Source: Paracoccus stylophorae (lineage in GTDB: Bacteria; Pseudomonadota; Alphaproteobacteria; Rhodobacterales; Rhodobacteraceae). From it: a stretch of DNA of 64,000 bases. Below are positions 6,651 through 56,602 of the stretch, one piece after another. The notes under the pieces are model-generated. The model was not told the DNA's origin. It saw only the letters and a list, made by a program, of their open reading frames with translations, and ran no database searches. Each line of letters starts with the position of its first letter. The stretch's first letter is position 1. The DNA lies in contig NZ_CP067134.1 of assembly GCF_028553765.1 (NCBI RefSeq), positions 2,213,001-2,277,000 of the forward strand, in the 5' to 3' direction. The translations under genes and the position numbers were made by a program.

Positions 6651-6731
6651 CTTCTTCGGAACCCTTCGTTAACCAGCGTCAGGTCCCAGAGCACGAGCCT
6701 TGACCGGCCCGGAAAACGCGGGCGGCCCAAG

Positions 6732-6851
6732 GTTCTCTTCCATCCGGACTATACCGTCGGCACCGGAATTTCACCGGCTCTGCTGTCCCTTCACGAAAAG
6801 GCGCTCGCGGGCTTTCACCGCCGGTGGGGAATTTCGCCCCGCCCTGAGAAC
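6732..6851 (-). promoter_or_regulatory. FMN riboswitch (RFN element)
   Basis: Read on the minus strand, the closing stem is GTTCTC (6851-6846) with GAGAAC (6737-6732). Between them are the RFN hallmarks in order: GGGGCGAAATTCCCC, ACCGGCGGTGAAAGCCC, a variable arm, CCGGTGAAATTCCGG and CCGACGGTATAGTCCGGATG. It lies 82 bp upstream of ribH2 and should reduce expression when FMN is abundant. No clear U-rich terminator follows, so control of translation initiation is as likely as attenuation. Confidence 0.95.
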
Positions 6852-6925
6852 GACCGCGATATAGCATCGCCGCCGCCCGTGGCCAAGATGCCGCGTCGCG
6901 GCCATCGGCGGGACGGGCGCGGCAA

Positions 6926-12617: not shown

Positions 12618-12707
12618 GGAGAGGTGCCGGAGTGGTCGAACGGGGCGGTCTCGAAAACCGTTGAGCCTTCACGGGTTCCGTGGGTTCGAATCCCACCCTC
12701 TCCGCCA
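12618..12707 (+). tRNA. tRNA-Ser (CGA anticodon)
   Basis: A 90-nt class II tRNA including the encoded CCA. Acceptor stem GGAGAGG (12618-12624) with CCTCTCC (12697-12703), discriminator G, CCA at 12705-12707. Anticodon stem GCGGT/ACCGT with loop CTCGAAA, anticodon CGA at 12652-12654. The long variable arm and T-arm GGGTTCGAATCCC are typical of tRNA-Ser. Everything downstream looks accessory, so its 3' end is a plausible integration site for the island. Confidence 0.97.
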
Positions 12708-22419: not shown

Positions 22420-23223
22420 GCTGCTGCGCCCATATCGCCGGCCAGCATCTCGCGCGCGAGGTAGCCGAGGCCGTCAATGCGCAGACGAACGTTCAGCCCG
22501 CCCTCTCCAATATCCACACGCTCGACCAGCAGCGCCACGATGCGCGTCTGCTCTGCGGGGAAGAGTTCGTCCCACAGCGGATCGAAGTGCTGCAGGGCCG
22601 CGCGGGCGTCTTCCTCGGTGATGTCGTCGGCATTGGCGCGTGCCGCCTTCCGTGTCCCGGCCACGATCTCGGGTTGGCGGAACACTGCGCGGAGCTGATC
22701 AATGACGGCGGTTTCGATCTCACCAGCCGAGACACGGCCCACGGGACACGATCCGGCGCCGTGCTTCAGCACCGTCTGGCTGACATAGTAGCGGTACAGT
22801 CGGTCGCCCTTCCGGGTGTGCGTCGGCGAGAACGCGGCGCCATCGGGCCCGAACAGCAGCCCCTTCAGCAACGCCGGGGTCTCGGCGCGGGTGCGCGCGG
22901 CGCGCTTGCGCGGGCTCTCCCGCAGGATGGAATGCACCCGGTCCCATGTCTCGCGGTCGATGATCGCATCGTGCTCGCCGGGGTAGCTCTCGCCCTTGTG
23001 GACCGCCTCGCCGATGTAGGCGCGGTTGTTCAGCATCCGGTAGAGGTACTTCTTGTCGATCCGGTTGCCGCGCGGCGTGCGGATGCCGCGCTTGGCCACC
23101 CCGCGCGCCAGTTCCGTCCCCGAGCCAATCTCGAGGAAGCGCGCGAAGATCCAGCGGACGTGTTCGGCCCGTTCCTCGTCGATGACCAGCTTCCGGCTCT
23201 CGACGCGGTAGTATCCGTCTTGG

Positions 23224-24159
23224 TCAAGCGGGTCTGTCGGCCCATTTCCGGCCGTCGCGCAGCAGCGCATTGGCGAGGAGGACGAGCTTGCGCATGACGG
23301 CGGTGATCGCGAGCTTTGGTGCTTTGCCGCTTTCAAGCAGCTGCTGGTATTTTCGCTTGAGGTCTGTGTTGAAGCGGATGGCGACGAGGGCGGGCATGAA
23401 GATCGCGGCGCGCAGGCTGGCGCGTCCGCCGCGGATCATTTCCTTTCCCTTCCACTTGCCCGAACGGCGCGTGAAGGGTGCCAGCCCGGCGAGGCTCGCG
23501 GCCTGTTTCGGCTCGAGGGTGCCGAGCTCCGGCATCTCGATCAGCAGCATGCACGCGGTCACGGCGCCGATGCCGGGAATAGAGGTCAGGATGTCGAGAC
23601 GCTCGGCCAGGGCGGGGTCCGCTGCGATCAGGGTGGAGATGGTTTCGTCAACTTCGGCAAGCTGCTTCTCGATGATGGCCAGCCGCGCCTTCGCCTGGCG
23701 GCGGATCAGGCTGATCGCTGCTGTTTCAGCACGGTTTCCTGCCGCCGTCCGATCCTTGATCAGCGCCAGCCGCGCGACGTGCAACTCCCTCAGTTCGTTC
23801 ATGAGTTCGCCACGAACCGGCCGCGGCGGCAGGTCGAGTGCGAGCCCCATCCGCGCCAGCAGCATCGCATCCACCCGATCTGTCTTGGCCTGCGTGCCAG
23901 TGGCCTCCGCGAAGCGCCGCGCCTGGCGAGGATTGACCTTGACCAGCGCATGTCCCGCCTTTGCGAGCGCTTCCTCCATTCCACGATGATAGGGGCCGGT
24001 CGGCTCGTAGACGATCCGCAGTCCTTCGGTGTTGCCGATCCATTTCAGCAAGGTCTTGAACCCGGCCTTGTCGTTTCCGAAAGAGTTGTGTTGCCGATCC
24101 GAGAGCCGGAACGCGTCCAGCCGGTCTTTCGAGATGTCGATGCCGATGATATCCTGCAT
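23224..24159 (-). CDS. IS110-family transposase (DEDD recombinase), copy 1
   Basis: 311 aa. N-terminal RuvC-like DEDD domain: GIDISKDRLDA near residues 5-15, IVYEPTGPYHRGME near 49, and KTDRVDAMLLARM near 92-104. The C-terminal Tnp2 (transposase_20) domain has ILTSIPGIGAVTA near 190 and the catalytic-serine region RGGRASLRAAIFMPA near 245. The enzyme works with a structured RNA made from the element's non-coding end. Same protein as copy 2. Confidence 0.93.
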   Translation of the reverse strand: MQDIIGIDISKDRLDAFRLSDRQHNSFGNDKAGFKTLLKWIGNTEGLRIVYEPTGPYHRGMEEALAKAGHALVKVNPRQARRFAEATGTQAKTDRVDAMLLARMGLALDLPPRPVRGELMNELRELHVARLALIKDRTAAGNRAETAAISLIRRQAKARLAIIEKQLAEVDETISTLIAADPALAERLDILTSIPGIGAVTACMLLIEMPELGTLEPKQAASLAGLAPFTRRSGKWKGKEMIRGGRASLRAAIFMPALVAIRFNTDLKRKYQQLLESGKAPKLAITAVMRKLVLLANALLRDGRKWADRPA

Positions 24160-24162
24160 CCG

Positions 24163-24327
24163 TCTTTTCCTTACCTCTGCTTGTCATGCAGGCCCGAAGC
24201 CCTGCTATCCGTTCAGGTCATGAGAAAAGACGGGGGCGATCACACTACCGCACGGCCCGCAACGGCCGACCCATTCTCGATCCGTCCCCCGCCGCTGCCC
24301 GGCATATTTGGGGTGCCGGGCAGCGGC
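24163..24327 (-). ncRNA. Predicted bridge RNA of the IS110-type element, copy 1
   Basis: Mirror of the region at 40686-40850: any position p there corresponds to 65013 minus p here. Strong 5' hairpin, a target loop with GCGGTAG at 24245-24251, and a donor loop with ACGGATA at 24206-24212 and GACAAG at 24180-24185. The right target guide complements CT-ACCGC of this insertion site exactly. The left guide (ATGGG) fits this site poorly unless shifted by one base. Transcript ends are guesses. Confidence 0.7.
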
Positions 24328-24893
24328 TCCCTTATCGCAAGGAAGCCGAGGGAAGTCATAAGACAAGCCATAGGGCGGCACCCCGCCCATCCACATGCCC
24401 TTCTTTCGGCTGGCGGCGACCTTGTCGCGGATGCGCTCGGCCGTCACCTCCCGCTCGAACTGCGCGAACGAGAGCAGGATGTTCAGCGTCAACCGGCCCA
24501 TGGACGTAGTCGTGTTGAAGGACTGGGTGACCGAGACGAAGGTCACGCCGTTCCTGTCGAACACCTCGACCAGCTTGGCGAAGTCGGCAAGCGAGCGGCT
24601 GAGGCGGTCGATCTTGTAGACCACCACCACGTCGACCAATCCGTCCTCGATATCCTCCTGCAGCCGCTTCAATCCGGGCCTGTCGAGCGTCCCGCCCGAG
24701 ATCCCGCCGTCATCATACTGATCGCGGACCAGCACCCAACCCTCGGAGCGCTGGCTGGCGATGTACGCCTCGCAGGCCTCGCGCTGTGCATGCAGGCTGT
24801 TGAATTCCTGCTCCAGCCCTTCCTCGGAGGATTTGCGGGTGTAGACTGCACACCGCAGCTTGCGGACGACCTTCGATTTATCGGACGGCTTCG

Positions 24894-40177: not shown

Positions 40178-40685
40178 CATGCATGACCTGGCTCTACCTT
40201 CCTCCGGAGACGCTTCCGGAGCCGGAGACGCATGTCTGTTCGGCCTCTCCCTCTGCTCCGGCGCGGGCGGTATCGACCTCGGGCTCACCATCGCCATCCC
40301 CGGATATCGTGCTGTGGGCCATGTCGAACGGGAAACCTTCGCCGCAGCCACTCTCGTGGCGCGGATGGAAGACGCGTCCCTGGATCAGGCTGTTGTCTGG
40401 GACGATGTTGCAACTTTCGACGGCCGCCCGTGGCGCGGCGCGGTGGACATCGTCACTGCGGGCTATCCGTGCCAGCCGTTCTCCGTCGCGGGCAAACGCC
40501 GGGGCGCCGACGACCCGCGCCACCTCTGGCCGCATGTCGCCCGCATCATCGGCGAGGTCGAACCGCCCTTCGTCTTCCTCGAGAATGTCGCCCATCATCT
40601 CCGCCTCGGCTTCCCCGAAGTCGCCGCAGGACTGGTCGGCATGGGCTTGTCTTATGACTTCCCTCGGCTTCCTTGCGATAAGGGA

Positions 40686-40850
40686 GCCGCTGCCCGGCAC
40701 CCCAAATATGCCGGGCAGCGGCGGGGGACGGATCGAGAATGGGTCGGCCGTTGCGGGCCGTGCGGTAGTGTGATCGCCCCCGTCTTTTCTCATGACCTGA
40801 ACGGATAGCAGGGCTTCGGGCCTGCATGACAAGCAGAGGTAAGGAAAAGA
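40686..40850 (+). ncRNA. Predicted bridge RNA of the IS110-type element, copy 2
   Basis: Seen in order. A perfect 14-bp hairpin: GCCGCTGCCCGGCA (40686-40699) with its complement at 40709-40722. A stem GGGGG..GATC with GATC..CCCCC encloses the target loop, which is ATGGG (40739-40743), hairpin CGGCC/GGCCG (40745-40760), then GCGGTAG (40762-40768). The donor loop is ACGGATA (40801-40807), hairpin GCAGG/CCTGC (40808-40825), then GACAAG (40828-40833). GCGGTAG complements target CT-ACCGC, ATGGG equals the left target, ACGGATA equals the element's right end, and GACAAG complements CT-TGTC at its left end. Family knowledge: IS110 bridge RNAs have exactly this guide-hairpin-guide order. Confidence 0.78.
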
Positions 40851-40853
40851 CGG

Positions 40854-41789
40854 ATGCAGGATATCATCGGCATCGACATCTCGAAAGACCGGCTGGACGC
40901 GTTCCGGCTCTCGGATCGGCAACACAACTCTTTCGGAAACGACAAGGCCGGGTTCAAGACCTTGCTGAAATGGATCGGCAACACCGAAGGACTGCGGATC
41001 GTCTACGAGCCGACCGGCCCCTATCATCGTGGAATGGAGGAAGCGCTCGCAAAGGCGGGACATGCGCTGGTCAAGGTCAATCCTCGCCAGGCGCGGCGCT
41101 TCGCGGAGGCCACTGGCACGCAGGCCAAGACAGATCGGGTGGATGCGATGCTGCTGGCGCGGATGGGGCTCGCACTCGACCTGCCGCCGCGGCCGGTTCG
41201 TGGCGAACTCATGAACGAACTGAGGGAGTTGCACGTCGCGCGGCTGGCGCTGATCAAGGATCGGACGGCGGCAGGAAACCGTGCTGAAACAGCAGCGATC
41301 AGCCTGATCCGCCGCCAGGCGAAGGCGCGGCTGGCCATCATCGAGAAGCAGCTTGCCGAAGTTGACGAAACCATCTCCACCCTGATCGCAGCGGACCCCG
41401 CCCTGGCCGAGCGTCTCGACATCCTGACCTCTATTCCCGGCATCGGCGCCGTGACCGCGTGCATGCTGCTGATCGAGATGCCGGAGCTCGGCACCCTCGA
41501 GCCGAAACAGGCCGCGAGCCTCGCCGGGCTGGCACCCTTCACGCGCCGTTCGGGCAAGTGGAAGGGAAAGGAAATGATCCGCGGCGGACGCGCCAGCCTG
41601 CGCGCCGCGATCTTCATGCCCGCCCTCGTCGCCATCCGCTTCAACACAGACCTCAAGCGAAAATACCAGCAGCTGCTTGAAAGCGGCAAAGCACCAAAGC
41701 TCGCGATCACCGCCGTCATGCGCAAGCTCGTCCTCCTCGCCAATGCGCTGCTGCGCGACGGCCGGAAATGGGCCGACAGACCCGCTTGA
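40854..41789 (+). CDS. IS110-family transposase, copy 2
   Basis: 311 aa, with the same sequence as the protein at 23224-24159: DEDD motifs GIDISKDRLDA, YEPTGPYHRGME and KTDRVDA, C-terminal RGGRASLRAAIF. It starts right after the donor-loop region (AGGTAAGG ribosome site), so message and guide RNA share the left end. Intact and presumably active. Confidence 0.93.
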   Translation: MQDIIGIDISKDRLDAFRLSDRQHNSFGNDKAGFKTLLKWIGNTEGLRIVYEPTGPYHRGMEEALAKAGHALVKVNPRQARRFAEATGTQAKTDRVDAMLLARMGLALDLPPRPVRGELMNELRELHVARLALIKDRTAAGNRAETAAISLIRRQAKARLAIIEKQLAEVDETISTLIAADPALAERLDILTSIPGIGAVTACMLLIEMPELGTLEPKQAASLAGLAPFTRRSGKWKGKEMIRGGRASLRAAIFMPALVAIRFNTDLKRKYQQLLESGKAPKLAITAVMRKLVLLANALLRDGRKWADRPA

Positions 41790-42411
41790 CCAAGACGGAT
41801 ACTACCGCCTTGCGGCAGGCCTCTTCACGGCGGCGGAAGTCGGCGCGCCCCACAAGCGCGAGCGGCTCTTCATCCTCGCCATCCGCGAAGGGGACGAGCT
41901 GGCCGACCCCGCGCGCCTGCTCTGGCACCCGGTCGAGTGGCGGGAACCGGACGGAACTGCTGCGGCTCTGGCCGACGCCAAGGGCCAGCGCCAACGAGAA
42001 CAGGCAGACAATACCGACGCCGTCGCAGAAAGCGGGCCAGCACGGCATGAACCTGGCGACCACGGCTGCGATGTGGCCCACGCCGCAGACCGACAGTTTC
42101 CGCAGCCGGGGCGGCGAACGACGAGACGAGAAGGGTCTGGACCGCATGGCGCGGGACTGGCCGACGCCGATGGCGAACGACGGCTGCAAGCCGAGCGCGG
42201 GCAACCGCAAGACGGCCGATCTGACCCATGCGGTGGGATTGTGGATGACGCCGACGGCGCGGGATCACAAGGACGGGGCGACGACACTCGCGAACACGCC
42301 GGTGAACGGCCTGCTTGGCCGCCAGATGGGGTGGATGCCGCCCTTCCTCGGCGGCAACGCCATGTGCCACATTCGTGGTGCTTGGTTCCACGAGAGGAAA
42401 AGGAGGCATCC

Positions 42412-43443
42412 ATGGAAAAAGGTATCATCGTCGGGGTCGATCTTGCAAAGCACAGCTTTCAATTGCACGGGTCATCGGCGGACGGGACCGTTCTGTTTCG
42501 CAAGAAGCTCAGCCGACCACAGTTTCACCGTTTCATGTCGGAGCAGCCGCATTGCACCGTTGTCATGGAGGCCTGCGGCGGGGCACATTTCTGGGCGCGT
42601 GAACTTGTGCGACTGGGCCATGAAGCGCGGCTGATCTCGGCGCGCTACGTGAAGCCGTTCATCAAGCGGCAGAAAAACGACGCGGCCGACGCCGAGGCGA
42701 TTGTCGAGGCGGCAACCCGTCCGACGATGCGGTTCGTCGAGGTCAAGAGTGCAGAACAGCAGGCCCGCGCCGTCGTGTTCCGGACCCGTGAGCAACTTCT
42801 GAAGCAACGAACCGAGCTGGTGAACGCGCTGCGTTCGCATCTCTACGAATTTGGGTATGTGGCACCACAGGGGATCCACAATCTTCCGCGCATCGCGGAA
42901 ATTCTTGATGATGAAAATACGGATATTCCGCTGCTGGCGCGCGAGACCTGCCTTGATCTGCTCTCACAAATCTCCGCTCAAACCGCCCGGATAAATGCGC
43001 TGACGAAGCGGATGGGCGAACTGGCCCGCACGGCGGACACGACCCGCAGATTGCAGACAATGCCGGGCATCGGGCCGATCGGCGCTCTGGCTATCGAAAC
43101 CTTCGCGCCGCCGATGGAAACCTTCGGCTGCGGCCGAAACTTCGCCGCTTGGCTGGGTCTCGTGCCCCGGCAGAACTCGACCGGGGGCAAACAGCGGCTC
43201 GGTCGAACGTCGAAGATGGGCCAGCAAGACATTCGGCGATTGCTGATCATCGGCGCGATGGCCGTGGTGCGGTGGACAAGTCAGAAAGGCGCCCGTCCGG
43301 GGACATGGCTGGCGCGTATGCTGGCGACGAAGCCGCGAATGCTCGTGGCAGTCGCACTGGCAAACAAGATGGCTCGTGGCATCTGGGCGATGCTGACGCG
43401 CAAGGAGGATTATCGAGATCCGGGGCAGTTGATGGCGGCGTGA
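42412..43443 (+). CDS. IS1111-type transposase, copy A
   Basis: 343 aa from the ATG at 42412 (AGGAGG upstream); upstream codons of the open frame belong to the interrupted gene. DEDD domain: GVDLAKHSFQLHG near residues 8-20, VVMEACGGAHFWARE near 50-64, KNDAADAEAIVEAA near 90. The C-terminal Tnp2 domain carries TMPGIGPIGALAIE near 218 and LGRTSKMGQQDIRRLL near 260 with the catalytic serine. Same protein as copy B. Confidence 0.93.
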   Translation: MEKGIIVGVDLAKHSFQLHGSSADGTVLFRKKLSRPQFHRFMSEQPHCTVVMEACGGAHFWARELVRLGHEARLISARYVKPFIKRQKNDAADAEAIVEAATRPTMRFVEVKSAEQQARAVVFRTREQLLKQRTELVNALRSHLYEFGYVAPQGIHNLPRIAEILDDENTDIPLLARETCLDLLSQISAQTARINALTKRMGELARTADTTRRLQTMPGIGPIGALAIETFAPPMETFGCGRNFAAWLGLVPRQNSTGGKQRLGRTSKMGQQDIRRLLIIGAMAVVRWTSQKGARPGTWLARMLATKPRMLVAVALANKMARGIWAMLTRKEDYRDPGQLMAA

Positions 43444-43529
43444 TACCGCGACGACCATCATCTGAAACCGGTACGCCGAGGATGTAGGGAGAGGTGCCAA
43501 ACTTCATGGGAAAATGATCGAACAGATCA

Positions 43530-43660
43530 GGGTCAGGAAAACCAGTCCAGGACACAGAGCCACTCGCTCGCCCGCCAGATTTGGACCTGGCCCGCGGATC
43601 ACCATACCGGCCGGCGGCGCGTGAAAGGCCGCACTATCAGGCCTGACACAAGCACGCACT
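43530..43660 (+). ncRNA. Predicted bridge RNA (seekRNA) of the IS1111-type element, copy A
   Basis: CCAGGAC (43547-43553), hairpin GAGC/GCTC (43557-43569), then CCGCCAG (43572-43578). Read against the bottom strand of the target, CCAGGAC-CT-GGCGGC, the first word equals the left half and the second complements CT-GGCGG. That is the IS110 guide-hairpin-guide order. Further on, ACACAAG (43646-43652) complements CT-TGTGT of the element end. A left donor guide is only tentative (CACCAT at 43600-43605, 5 of 6 against the other end). Transcript limits are guesses. Confidence 0.62.
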
Positions 43661-44074
43661 CGATCAGAAACTCAGAACAAGGCAAATCAACTTGCAAACC
43701 GGGCGGCATCCACACAAGGTCCTGGTGACGCCGATGGCTGGGAGCGATACCTCCGAGCCGCGCCGGACCTTGAACCCGCTGTTCGTCGAGGCACTGATGG
43801 GTTGGCCCACCGGGTGGACCGGCTTCGCCTCTGTGGCAACGGCGTGGTCCCCTTGGTTGCGGCGCATGCGCTGCGAACTCTCGCGGCTGAACTGCTGGCC
43901 GATGGATGAGGCAGCGGCATGAAGCAGACCCGCCTCATGTCGCTGGTCGAGTCCGTCGCCAACGTGATCGTCGGCTACGGCGTCGCGGTCGTGACGCAGA
44001 TCCTGATCTTCCCGATCTTCGGGCTGCACACGACGCTGGCGCAGAACCTGAAGATGGGCGCCATTTTCACCATC

Positions 44075-53072: not shown

Positions 53073-54447
53073 CCTTCATGGACACGATGATCGAACTGCC
53101 GGCCATGCGCCGGTCGGCGGAGCTTGCGCCGAACACGGCCGATGCCGACAACCGCACCGTCGAGGTGGTCTGGTCGGCCGGGGCTCGCGTCCGCCGTGCC
53201 ACCTTCTTCGGCGAGCCTTATGACGAGGAACTCAGCCTCGACCCGGCCCATGTCCGGCTCGACCGGCTGAACGCGGGCGCGCCGTTCCTGAAGGTGCACG
53301 AGCTCGACACGCTCGACGCGGTGATCGGCTCGGTCGTGCCGGGCTCGGCCCGGATCGAGAACGGTCGCGGCATCGCCTTGGTCCGGATCAGCGAGCGTGC
53401 CGATGTCGAGCCGATCTGGCGCGACATCCAGGCGGGGCACATCCGCGCCGTCTCCATCGGCTACCAGGTCCACCGGTTTGATATCTCGAAGCCTGATGGC
53501 GCCCGCGAGCTCTGGCGCGCGGTGGACTGGACGCCCTTCGAGGTCTCCGCCGTCGCGGTCGGCGCCGACCCAGCAGCGGGCTTCCGCGCCCAGCACCCCC
53601 TTCACGACTGCGTCCTCCACCGCCGGGACGCCCCTTCCACCACGAAAGGACCGATCCCGATGACGGACACGACCCAGACCCCGGCGAGCGACGCCGCAAC
53701 CCCCGCCAACACCCAGCCGACCGCGCCGGTCGAAACCGAGGACACCCCCATGACCGAGCCGAAACCGGCTGCGCCCGACCCGAAGGTCGCGGCCAGCGAG
53801 ACGCGCAGCCAGAAGACGCAGGTAACTCCCGCGCCCGATACCGAAGTGGTCGCCACCCGCGCCCGCGAGGCCGAGCGCGACCGCGTCTCCACCATCTACG
53901 ACCTGGCCGGGCGGCTGAACCTCGAGCGCGGCTTCGCCGAGGACCTGGTCAAGCGCGGTGTCAGCGTGGACGAGTCCCGCCGCCTGATCCTCGACCAGGT
54001 CGCAGCGAAGTCTGACGAGACCCGGACCTTCCCCCATGTCTCCGTCCCGCTTGGCGGCCGGGACGAGCGCATCACCCGCCGCGACGCGGTGGCGAACGCG
54101 CTGCTGCACCGCTACAGCCCGACGCTGTTCCAGCTGGAAGACGCCGCGCGCCAGTATCGCGGCATGACGCTGCTGGAACTGGCCCGCGAAAGCCTCGGCA
54201 ATGCCGGGGTGAACACCCGCGGCCTGTCGCGCGACGAGGTGGCGACGCGCGCGCTGCATTCGACCTCGGACTTCCCCGAGATCCTCTCGGCAGTCACCAA
54301 CAAGACCCTGCGGCAAGCCTACGAGGCCTATCCCCGCACCTTCATGCTGTTCTGCCGCCAGATGGGGTGGATGCCGCCCTTCCTCGGCGGCAACGCCATG
54401 TGCCACATTCGTGGTGCTTGGTTCCACGAGAGGAAAAGGAGGCATCC

Positions 54448-55479
54448 ATGGAAAAAGGTATCATCGTCGGGGTCGATCTTGCAAAGCACAGCTTTCAATT
54501 GCACGGGTCATCGGCGGACGGGACCGTTCTGTTTCGCAAGAAGCTCAGCCGACCACAGTTTCACCGTTTCATGTCGGAGCAGCCGCATTGCACCGTTGTC
54601 ATGGAGGCCTGCGGCGGGGCACATTTCTGGGCGCGTGAACTTGTGCGACTGGGCCATGAAGCGCGGCTGATCTCGGCGCGCTACGTGAAGCCGTTCATCA
54701 AGCGGCAGAAAAACGACGCGGCCGACGCCGAGGCGATTGTCGAGGCGGCAACCCGTCCGACGATGCGGTTCGTCGAGGTCAAGAGTGCAGAACAGCAGGC
54801 CCGCGCCGTCGTGTTCCGGACCCGTGAGCAACTTCTGAAGCAACGAACCGAGCTGGTGAACGCGCTGCGTTCGCATCTCTACGAATTTGGGTATGTGGCA
54901 CCACAGGGGATCCACAATCTTCCGCGCATCGCGGAAATTCTTGATGATGAAAATACGGATATTCCGCTGCTGGCGCGCGAGACCTGCCTTGATCTGCTCT
55001 CACAAATCTCCGCTCAAACCGCCCGGATAAATGCGCTGACGAAGCGGATGGGCGAACTGGCCCGCACGGCGGACACGACCCGCAGATTGCAGACAATGCC
55101 GGGCATCGGGCCGATCGGCGCTCTGGCTATCGAAACCTTCGCGCCGCCGATGGAAACCTTCGGCTGCGGCCGAAACTTCGCCGCTTGGCTGGGTCTCGTG
55201 CCCCGGCAGAACTCGACCGGGGGCAAACAGCGGCTCGGTCGAACGTCGAAGATGGGCCAGCAAGACATTCGGCGATTGCTGATCATCGGCGCGATGGCCG
55301 TGGTGCGGTGGACAAGTCAGAAAGGCGCCCGTCCGGGGACATGGCTGGCGCGTATGCTGGCGACGAAGCCGCGAATGCTCGTGGCAGTCGCACTGGCAAA
55401 CAAGATGGCTCGTGGCATCTGGGCGATGCTGACGCGCAAGGAGGATTATCGAGATCCGGGGCAGTTGATGGCGGCGTGA
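54448..55479 (+). CDS. IS1111-type transposase, copy B
   Basis: 343 aa, same sequence as copy A (GVDLAKHSFQLHG, VVMEACGGAHFWARE, KNDAADAEAIVE, TMPGIGPIGALAIE). Intact with the same AGGAGG ribosome site. Confidence 0.93.
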   Translation: MEKGIIVGVDLAKHSFQLHGSSADGTVLFRKKLSRPQFHRFMSEQPHCTVVMEACGGAHFWARELVRLGHEARLISARYVKPFIKRQKNDAADAEAIVEAATRPTMRFVEVKSAEQQARAVVFRTREQLLKQRTELVNALRSHLYEFGYVAPQGIHNLPRIAEILDDENTDIPLLARETCLDLLSQISAQTARINALTKRMGELARTADTTRRLQTMPGIGPIGALAIETFAPPMETFGCGRNFAAWLGLVPRQNSTGGKQRLGRTSKMGQQDIRRLLIIGAMAVVRWTSQKGARPGTWLARMLATKPRMLVAVALANKMARGIWAMLTRKEDYRDPGQLMAA

Positions 55480-55565
55480 TACCGCGACGACCATCATCTG
55501 AAACCGGTACGCCGAGGATGTAGGGAGAGGTGCCAAACTTCATGGGAAAATGATCGAACAGATCA

Positions 55566-55696
55566 GGGTCAGGAAAACCAGTCCAGGACACAGAGCCACT
55601 CGCTCGCCCGCCAGATTTGGACCTGGCCCGCGGATCACCATACCGGCCGGCGGCGCGTGAAAGGCCGCACTATCAGGCCTGACACAAGCACGCACT
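55566..55696 (+). ncRNA. Predicted bridge RNA of the IS1111-type element, copy B
   Basis: Same sequence as 43530-43660, shifted by 12036. Guide words CCAGGAC (55583-55589), CCGCCAG (55608-55614) and ACACAAG (55682-55688). Against this target the left half is CCAGAAC, so one guide G would pair as G-T wobble; the right half fits perfectly. Confidence 0.6.
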
Positions 55697-56602
55697 CGAT
55701 CAGAAACTCAGAACAAGGCAAATCAACTTGCAAACCGGGCGGCATCCACACAAGGTTCTGGCCACCGACTTCAAGGCCATGCACCGGGTGCAGCTCGGCG
55801 AGGCGCCGCAGCTGCTGGAGGTCGGCGAGAGCGGCGAGTTCAAGCGCGGCACGCTCGGTGAGAGCAAGGAGAGCTACAAGGTCAAGACCTATGGCCGGGT
55901 GGTCGCCATCACCCGCCAGACGCTGATCAACGACGATCTCGACGCCTTCACCCGGATCCCGGCGATGTACGGCAACTCCATCGCCCAGCTGGAGTCGGAT
56001 GTGGTCTGGGGCATCATCACCGCAAACCCGGCGATGGCCGACGGCAACGCGCTGTTCCACACCACGCACAAGAACCTCGCGGGCACCGGCGCGGCGCTCG
56101 ACGTCGGCAGCGTCGGTGCGGCGCGCGCGGCGATGGCCAAGCAGACCGGCCTCGACAAGAAGACCGTGCTGAACGTCCGCCCCGCCTTCCTGATCGTGCC
56201 CGCCTCGCTGGAACTGAAGGCCGAGCAGTTGGTCGCCCAGAACCTCGTGCCCGCGGCGACCTCCAGCGTCGTACCGCAGTCGATCCGGACGCTCGCGCCG
56301 ATCAGCGAGCCTCGGCTCGACGCGGCGAGCGAGACGGCCTGGTATCTGGCGGCCTCGCCGAACCAGATCGACACCATCGAGTACGCCTATCTCGAGGGTC
56401 AGCAGGGCGCCTACATCGAGACGCGCAACGGCTTCGACGTCGACGGGGTCGAGATAAAGTGCCGCCTCGACTTCGGCGCCAAGGCCATCGACTGGCGCGG
56501 CCTCTACAAGAACCCGGGCGCGTAACCCGCACCCCGTCCTGAACCCTGACATGCGGGCGGTCCTGACGGGCCGCCCTTCGTCTTTCCACGAGGATCACCC
56601 CC

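Follow-up and report, generated by a model that had tools for sequence, protein, structure and literature searches.

Results

An IS110-group element in a phage-type methyltransferase gene

The window, meaning the whole 64,000-nucleotide stretch of Paracoccus stylophorae DNA that was analyzed, contains an insertion sequence at positions 40646–41803 of the forward strand, the strand on which all of its features are given below. It consists of a 1156-bp unit plus a CT core counted at both ends, limits that were set by comparing the flanks of five identical copies in the genome. The element interrupts a C5 cytosine methyltransferase gene, the left part of which lies at 40179–40645 on the same strand (PF00145 on the open reading frame 40179–40808). 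From the flanks of the copies, the left CT core is at 40646–40647 and the right CT core at 41802–41803. The right donor (RD), TGTC, follows the left core at 40648–40651 and the left donor (LD), ACGGATA, occupies 41795–41801. A single gene (40854–41789) encodes a recombinase of 311 amino acids, with 208 nt of left end before its ATG at 40854 and 14 nt of right end past its stop.

The recombinase scored above the cut-offs for PF01548 and PF02371 in Pfam and matched NF033542, "IS110 family RNA-guided transposase", in NCBIfam (219 bits; cut-off 140). Its nearest solved relatives in a sequence search are ISCro4 (PDB 9t56; E 7e-35) and IS621 (PDB 8wt6; E 5e-34), to which it aligns across residues 4–304. 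Both a RuvC-like DEDD domain and a Tnp domain with the catalytic-serine position are present, and the reading frame and catalytic motif residues are intact. The DEDD motif residues D8, E52, D94 and D97 and the serine S233 fall within motifs aligned to IS621 and ISCro4; in naming them we relied in part on what we take to be the catalytic residues of IS621. A preliminary description of this DNA had placed an IS110-type element at the same coordinates, and Pfam, NCBIfam and the homology to IS621 and ISCro4 agree on this. That the element belongs to the IS110 group and carries a predicted bridge RNA is very well supported. A search of phage records returned no match to the element.

A second IS110-family element is present at 42318–43725 and 54354–55761. 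Its copies are 99.9% identical over 1408 bp, PF01548 and PF02371 were found in the first copy, and one copy lies approximately 0.5 kb downstream of the element described above. Because its long non-coding part (approximately 280 nt) is downstream of the gene, the IS1111 group is suggested.

The left end and its predicted bridge RNA

The left end contains a predicted 5′ stem-loop at 40686–40722, with 14-bp perfect arms at 40686–40699 and 40709–40722, followed at 40723–40781 by a predicted target-binding loop with its stem (GGGGG..GGATC/GATC..CCCCC). Within this loop are the left target guide (LTG), GAGAATGGG, at 40735–40743, a hairpin read from the sequence at 40745–40760, and the right target guide (RTG), TGCGGTAG, at 40761–40768, which is the complement of CTACCGCA. 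The base after the RTG, T at 40769, is a predicted target-loop handshake base with the role described by PMC11208158; it is the invariant column T124 of alignment A2 (see below) and would pair donor A 41801 after strand exchange. On the donor side, the left donor guide (LDG), ACGGATA, is at 40801–40807 and the right donor guide (RDG), GACAAG, at 40828–40833, with the predicted donor-loop handshake base C at 40834.

The guide matches named in the preliminary description are all present, and that observation is confirmed. The RDG complements CTTGTC, which starts the element at 40646, and the LDG repeats the last 7 bases before the right core at 41795–41801, both as had been claimed; thus the donor guides are complementary to the element's own donor ends. 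The claim that GCGGTAG complements CT-ACCGC to the right of two insertion sites holds more widely, with the seven bases CTACCGC paired to the RTG at all five sites in this genome. For the left target the claim stands in part. The LTG ends in AATGGG (40738–40743), and in the register ending at 40743 it fits the methyltransferase sites with ATGGG adjoining the core (6 of 7 positions). At the serine-recombinase site described below the match is down to ATGG, one position out of register (4 of 7), and the LTG also fits only 4 of 7 positions at the site of the relative L038.

The CT core is encoded by the RTG and the RDG, and is encoded neither by the LTG (AAUGGG-UC, in either register) nor by the LDG (ACGGATA-G), in which most relatives have the core C at the next base. 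Durrant and colleagues describe the core dinucleotide of IS621 as part of all four guide pairings (PMC11208160, in the portions available), a pattern that is not seen here. We read the missing core pairing as variation inside the family and not as a bar to membership, because the IS621 LDG itself stops at the core C in the structural account (PMC11208158, likewise in part) and because many relatives have no CT after the LTG.

We aligned 35 left ends (alignment A2; L049, L054 and L099 were dropped from 38 that were non-redundant). The named structure, with 41 pairs, is paired in 87.1% of alignment cells compared with 37–54% when the partners were slid, and 26 of the 41 pairs show changes on both sides. 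The covariation score of 0.310 was reached in none of 500 shuffles (0.157 shuffled). Signal is strong in the 5′ stem-loop, where helices 1 and 2 covary, and in the target loop, where helices 3–5 have 94–99% of cells paired with changes on both sides; it is weak in the donor-loop hairpin (57%) and the donor outer stem (71%). A pairing between the left end and the RDG in a first consensus (A1) was excluded from the tested structure because it equals the donor match. The preliminary description had pointed to conserved structure in homologous left ends as a check on its reading, and the 35 left ends share such a covarying structure. The left end in the window has a fold z of −3.8. The Rfam matches in the window are a selenocysteine tRNA (2187–2278), an FMN riboswitch (6728–6855) and a tRNA (12618–12704); no bridge RNA was among these three.

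A sigma-70 scan gave no match in the linear left end. With the right and left ends joined, TTGACC-17-TATGAC spans the core and is the best candidate of the junction at 9 of 12 positions, a score taken without a shuffle control and against a consensus that may not suit this organism.

Copies of the element in the genome

The genome holds five copies that are 100% identical over 1158 bases. All five are inserted at the core dinucleotide CT and flanked as GG-CT...CT-ACCGC. The preliminary description had raised the matter of copies at sites lacking CTACCGC, and there is none among these five. Three of them (L002, which is the copy at 40646–41803, L004 and L005) sit in three copies of the C5 cytosine methyltransferase gene at CATGGG-CT-ACCGCC.

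A further copy (L003) lies on the reverse strand of the window at 23210–24367, where the coding sequence to either side of it reads as that of a large serine recombinase. Its site is CCCTATGG-CT-ACCGCGTCGAG, with ACCGCG to the right of the core. Resolvase, Recombinase and zinc-ribbon domains were identified in an intact homologue of this gene elsewhere in the genome (L222), and an unoccupied serine-recombinase site reads GG-CT-ACCGC. The target is uninterrupted in L222 (15830–15840), L232 and L239, as CCCTA[CT]GG-CT-ACCGCGT; the TATGG-CT-ACCGC of L232 is identical to the occupied site.

In the last copy (L001; G000:C1:2450517-2451674) the left flank is of the methyltransferase type and the right flank of the PadR type (PF03551), so it is a chimaera, which may have arisen by deletion, either between two copies or between one copy and a new target. 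The left flank comes from another related prophage-like region that is 96% identical to the window over 6.7 kb. In a search of 125 genus genomes, the PadR side was matched only in this genome. Beyond the PadR side is a gene that by eye resembles a chromate transporter.

A genome search found no unoccupied ATGGGCTACCGC, and GGCTACCGC occurs at 12 unoccupied places, three of which resemble the serine-recombinase site. Thus, in this genome, the element occupies all exact matches to the methyltransferase site, whereas most partial matches are empty.

Guides and targets change together among relatives

Relatives were found in 24 of 292 genomes of the order (protein, E ≤ 1e-40) and, by DNA (E ≤ 1e-30), in 13 of 394 family genomes and 20 of 125 genus genomes, this genome being counted in each. 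We added 8 loci from named genomes, 3 viral contigs and 17 of 113 plasmid records. Parsing yielded 56 distinct element-site rows, 8 of them without a full right target.

In 48 rows with 23 guides, 222 of 288 right-guide positions matched the right target of the same element, compared with a shuffled mean of 83.7 (sd 15.4) and a maximum of 149 in 10,000 shuffles. Left guides matched at 297 of 392 positions (56 rows, 34 guides), with a shuffled mean of 169.8 (sd 12.1) and a maximum of 225 in 5,000; here the register was the best of four for real and shuffled pairs alike. The shuffles kept the relatedness among rows. No shuffle reached the observed right or left score, and a chance match between guides and targets was rejected. 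On the right, two of the 48 rows fail (L033 and L016, each with only 1 of 6), and L056 is weak with 3 of 6. Two elements with recombinases 48–49% identical to the query illustrate how guide and target change together: L013 has TTCTAAAG with CTTTAGAA, and L015 has TTCCCGAG with CTCGGGAC.

The LTG register is clear in 32 of the 34 distinct left guides. CT comes next in 11 of these and not in 21, and the end of the register lies 8, 9, 10 and 11 bases past the stem in 14, 12, 3 and 3 of them. These counts are post hoc, and a few assignments (L013, L015 and L044) depend on a single match. In the members seen of the clade that holds the copies in this genome (L001–L005, L037, L038, L044, L045 and L046), the LTG is without CT and the LDG has G, at several sites. 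Another subclade (L061, L062, L063, L064 and L049) has the right guide GTCAGTAG and sites CTA[CT]TGAT, and similar sites are reused in several genomes.

Some rows depended on manual decisions. The right targets of L049, L064, L056 and L075/L084 were assigned by hand, the parsing pattern having chosen the wrong end, and the right target of L054 was blanked. The core position of L075/L084 was picked with the guide known, and L016 and L053 each had two possible anchors, of which one was discarded by hand. Left out of the guide table were a lineage of 35–40% identity with other ends (L018, L020–L024, L027, L029, L030, L035 and L040) and truncated or unparsable left ends, including L025, L034, L039, L041–L043, L055, L058, L059, L074, L076, L079 and L081. 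L008, L028 and L050 were missed by the pattern, the target loop of L028 being missing. Judged by eye, L008 and L050 have right guides that agree with their own flanks at most positions. L039 and L041–L043 keep right ends only, and all four read CTACCG. In L008, whose left end precedes the gene at locus 1498, the left core appears by eye to be TT and the right core CT, and the left guide also has TT; nature may here offer an example of a guide that encodes another core base.

Donor ends and handshake bases

The donor ends are nearly invariant in the family, and for this reason the donor side offers a weaker test of covariation than the target side. End and guide changed together in three lineages, L098/L099 (ACAGATA), L013 (AGGGATA) and L065 (CTTCTC/GAGAAG). 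Against this, the donor end changed with the guide unchanged in L016 and L050, and the guide changed without a matching end in L070. The RDG of L013 ends as GACAAT, where core pairing needs GACAAG, and L047 keeps the core C in its LDG, unlike the element described here, which has G. The automatic donor table misread the right end at several loci, for example L091, L085, L093, L094, L056 and L010, and for these the ends came from other readings of the same loci.

Hiraizumi and colleagues report, in the portions available (PMC11208158), that strand exchange brings the base just past the right donor guide into pairing with the target base to the left of the core. The predicted base in this position, C, is opposite G in all five copies in this genome. 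Among the 56 family rows it is complementary in 46 and fails in 10. When scored by left-guide group the total is 27.1 of 34 compared with 16.0 ± 2.1 in shuffles, none of 20,000 being as high.

Apparent repeated insertion at one base pair of phage methyltransferase genes

Identical elements occur in methyltransferase genes whose 800-bp left flanks are only 84–92% identical to one another (L002, L004, L005 and L046). In L046, an IMG/VR contig, the flanks are 86.5% (left) and 89% (right) identical. The nearest flank differences from L002 are 15 bases to the left and 14 to the right of the core in L004, 18 and 41 in L046, and 72 and 26 in L005. The opposite holds for L002 and L038 (Tropicimonas), whose elements are only 88.6% identical although their flanks do not differ over 800 bp on the left and 524 bp on the right. 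In addition, L047 carries an element 74% identical to that of the window at the same base of the methyltransferase gene, and its LTG fits the site at 7 of 7 positions. That identical elements lie in diverged flanks, and 88.6%-identical elements in identical ones, points to separate insertion events at a single base pair of phage-type C5 methyltransferase genes. Most simply, this one position in one phage gene has been hit repeatedly by related elements. A single old insertion was rejected on the same two comparisons.

The uninterrupted site, GGCATGGG-CT-ACCGCCTTGC (that is, GGCATGGGCTACCGCCTTGC), was found in at least 120 viral stretches. In 115 of the 120 listed, PCQ[PAG][FWY]S lies upstream in the same open frame (GMGYRL), and in the remaining 5 the site is near the end of the fetched stretch. 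We take PCQ[PAG][FWY]S to be a typical C5 methyltransferase motif. The longest open frame at the site is a different one in 85 of the 120 stretches listed; the methyltransferase motifs are in the GMGYRL frame. The one intact homologue of the interrupted gene that was checked, in viral contig L103, is PF00145.

Discussion

Proposed mechanism

This is almost certainly an active or very recently active IS110-group element in which a bridge RNA from the left end would guide both target and donor pairing and the recombinase would insert at CT. The ends, the guides, the covariation and the repeated insertion at one base can be read from the DNA, and from them we infer that there is a transcript and a circle, that catalysis occurs and how much weight each guide carries. 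The left end would encode a bridge RNA estimated at 160–200 nt. Its target loop is predicted to pair GCATGGG-CT-ACCGC, a stretch whose codons are conserved among C5 cytosine methyltransferase genes of phages and, in part, among those for large serine recombinases. Its donor loop would pair ACGGATA-CT-TGTC, the sequence formed where the element's two ends are joined. A circle, in which a promoter may re-form at the junction, would be excised by the DEDD/serine recombinase and then inserted at CT. The right guide would be the main source of specificity, since at each of the five sites in this genome it matches 7 bases, counting the core; the left guide probably adds 4–6 of 7 bases at these sites and, at the methyltransferase sites, is one nucleotide off the canonical register without core pairing. 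The preliminary description had proposed a naturally functional guide, and what appear to be recent, independent insertions support this.

Related elements often occupy related sites, a relatedness that the shuffles do not remove and that would be seen if protein or host factors chose the site and the guide matches merely reflected shared ancestry of element and site. We consider this very improbable. Across the 23 distinct right guides, a change in the guide goes with a change in the target, the RNA is structured with conserved compensatory pairs, and RNA guidance is established for the homologous IS621 (PMC11208160, in the portions available). The location of all of the methyltransferase copies at the same base could also mean that they descend from one old phage-carried insertion whose element was homogenised later, and gene conversion between copies in one genome is possible and could contribute to their identity. 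This seems unlikely given that L002 and L038 share identical flanks with elements only 88.6% identical, that L046 has the identical element in diverged flanks, that the site is uninterrupted in at least 120 viral stretches, and that further copies interrupt a serine recombinase gene or adjoin a PadR gene.

It is about equally improbable that the element is now inactive in this genome, the copies being recent and the absent LTG and LDG core pairing being a form of decay. The LDG change from core C to G and the LTG without CT fit such decay, as does the relative L047, which keeps the LDG C. Against it, the clade members seen (L001–L005, L037, L038 and L044–L046) share both features at several sites, and the reading frame and catalytic motif residues are intact.

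A more tentative suggestion, which we hold to be possible and somewhat short of probable, concerns this alphaproteobacterial lineage. The LTG may have been freed from the core, so that it slides by one to three nucleotides relative to the loop hairpin between subclades and need not pair CT, and core choice and most specificity would rest on the longer right guide. If this is true, the elements keep one conserved right half-site, in phage methyltransferase and serine recombinase codons, as the left guide drifts.

The locus offers a natural experiment. Related elements that share a right guide and differ in their left guides occupy a single base pair of one phage gene, and elements with no differences occur in diverged copies of that gene. 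The pattern suggests that a natural bridge RNA can function with a longer right guide and no core pairing by the left one, which bears on design rules for guides derived from IS621. It also suggests that an IS110 element spreads through prophages by reading codons conserved in methyltransferase and integrase-type genes.

Comparison with known systems

The bridge-RNA class, the logic of its guides and natural covariation of guide and target were published in 2024 (PMC11208160; PMC11187229; both in the portions available). The element is a new member of this class, and its left-guide variation is informative. We recognised no description of it in the titles and abstracts of published papers on IS110 with methyltransferases or prophages, on guides, on diversity and on Paracoccus. 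One analysis by Durrant and colleagues, in the portions available, retained only guides with a CT core (PMC11208160), and because of this filter the variation in the left-guide core may already be known to them.

Like IS621 in the portions available of its descriptions (PMC11208160; PMC11208158), our element has a homologous recombinase, a CT core, predicted handshake bases and a predicted left-end RNA in which a 5′ stem-loop, a target loop and a donor loop carry four guides in the same order. In the same sources the right guide of IS621 has 4 bases, whereas that of our element has 7–8 including the core. Our element also differs in its left guide, which is one off in register and without CT-core pairing, and in its LDG, which is without the core C. 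Among solved structures, the best sequence match to the recombinase is the ISCro4 transposase. The donor ends of IS621, as we take them to be, resemble those of our element. IS621 targets REP sequences, and the target here is a coding motif in phage methyltransferase and serine recombinase genes.

The IS1111 group shares the DEDD recombinase family with our element. In that group the long non-coding end is downstream of the gene and there are subterminal inverted repeats of 7–17 bp. Unlike the IS1111 group, our element has its long end upstream (208 nt compared with 14 nt), so that a long right end is absent, and a repeat scan of the region with a minimum of 12 nt found no inverted pair joining its two ends.

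The seekRNA of ISEc21, also of the IS110 family (Siddiquee and colleagues, PMC11187229), is as a comparison close in another respect. In the portions available of that work, ISEc21 likewise has an upstream non-coding region, a guide RNA and a linear target in conserved codons of a mobile gene, and is thus a precedent for coding-motif targets in mobile DNA. The target codons of ISEc21 are in IS3 transposases, whereas those of our element are in phage-type C5 methyltransferase and large serine recombinase genes.
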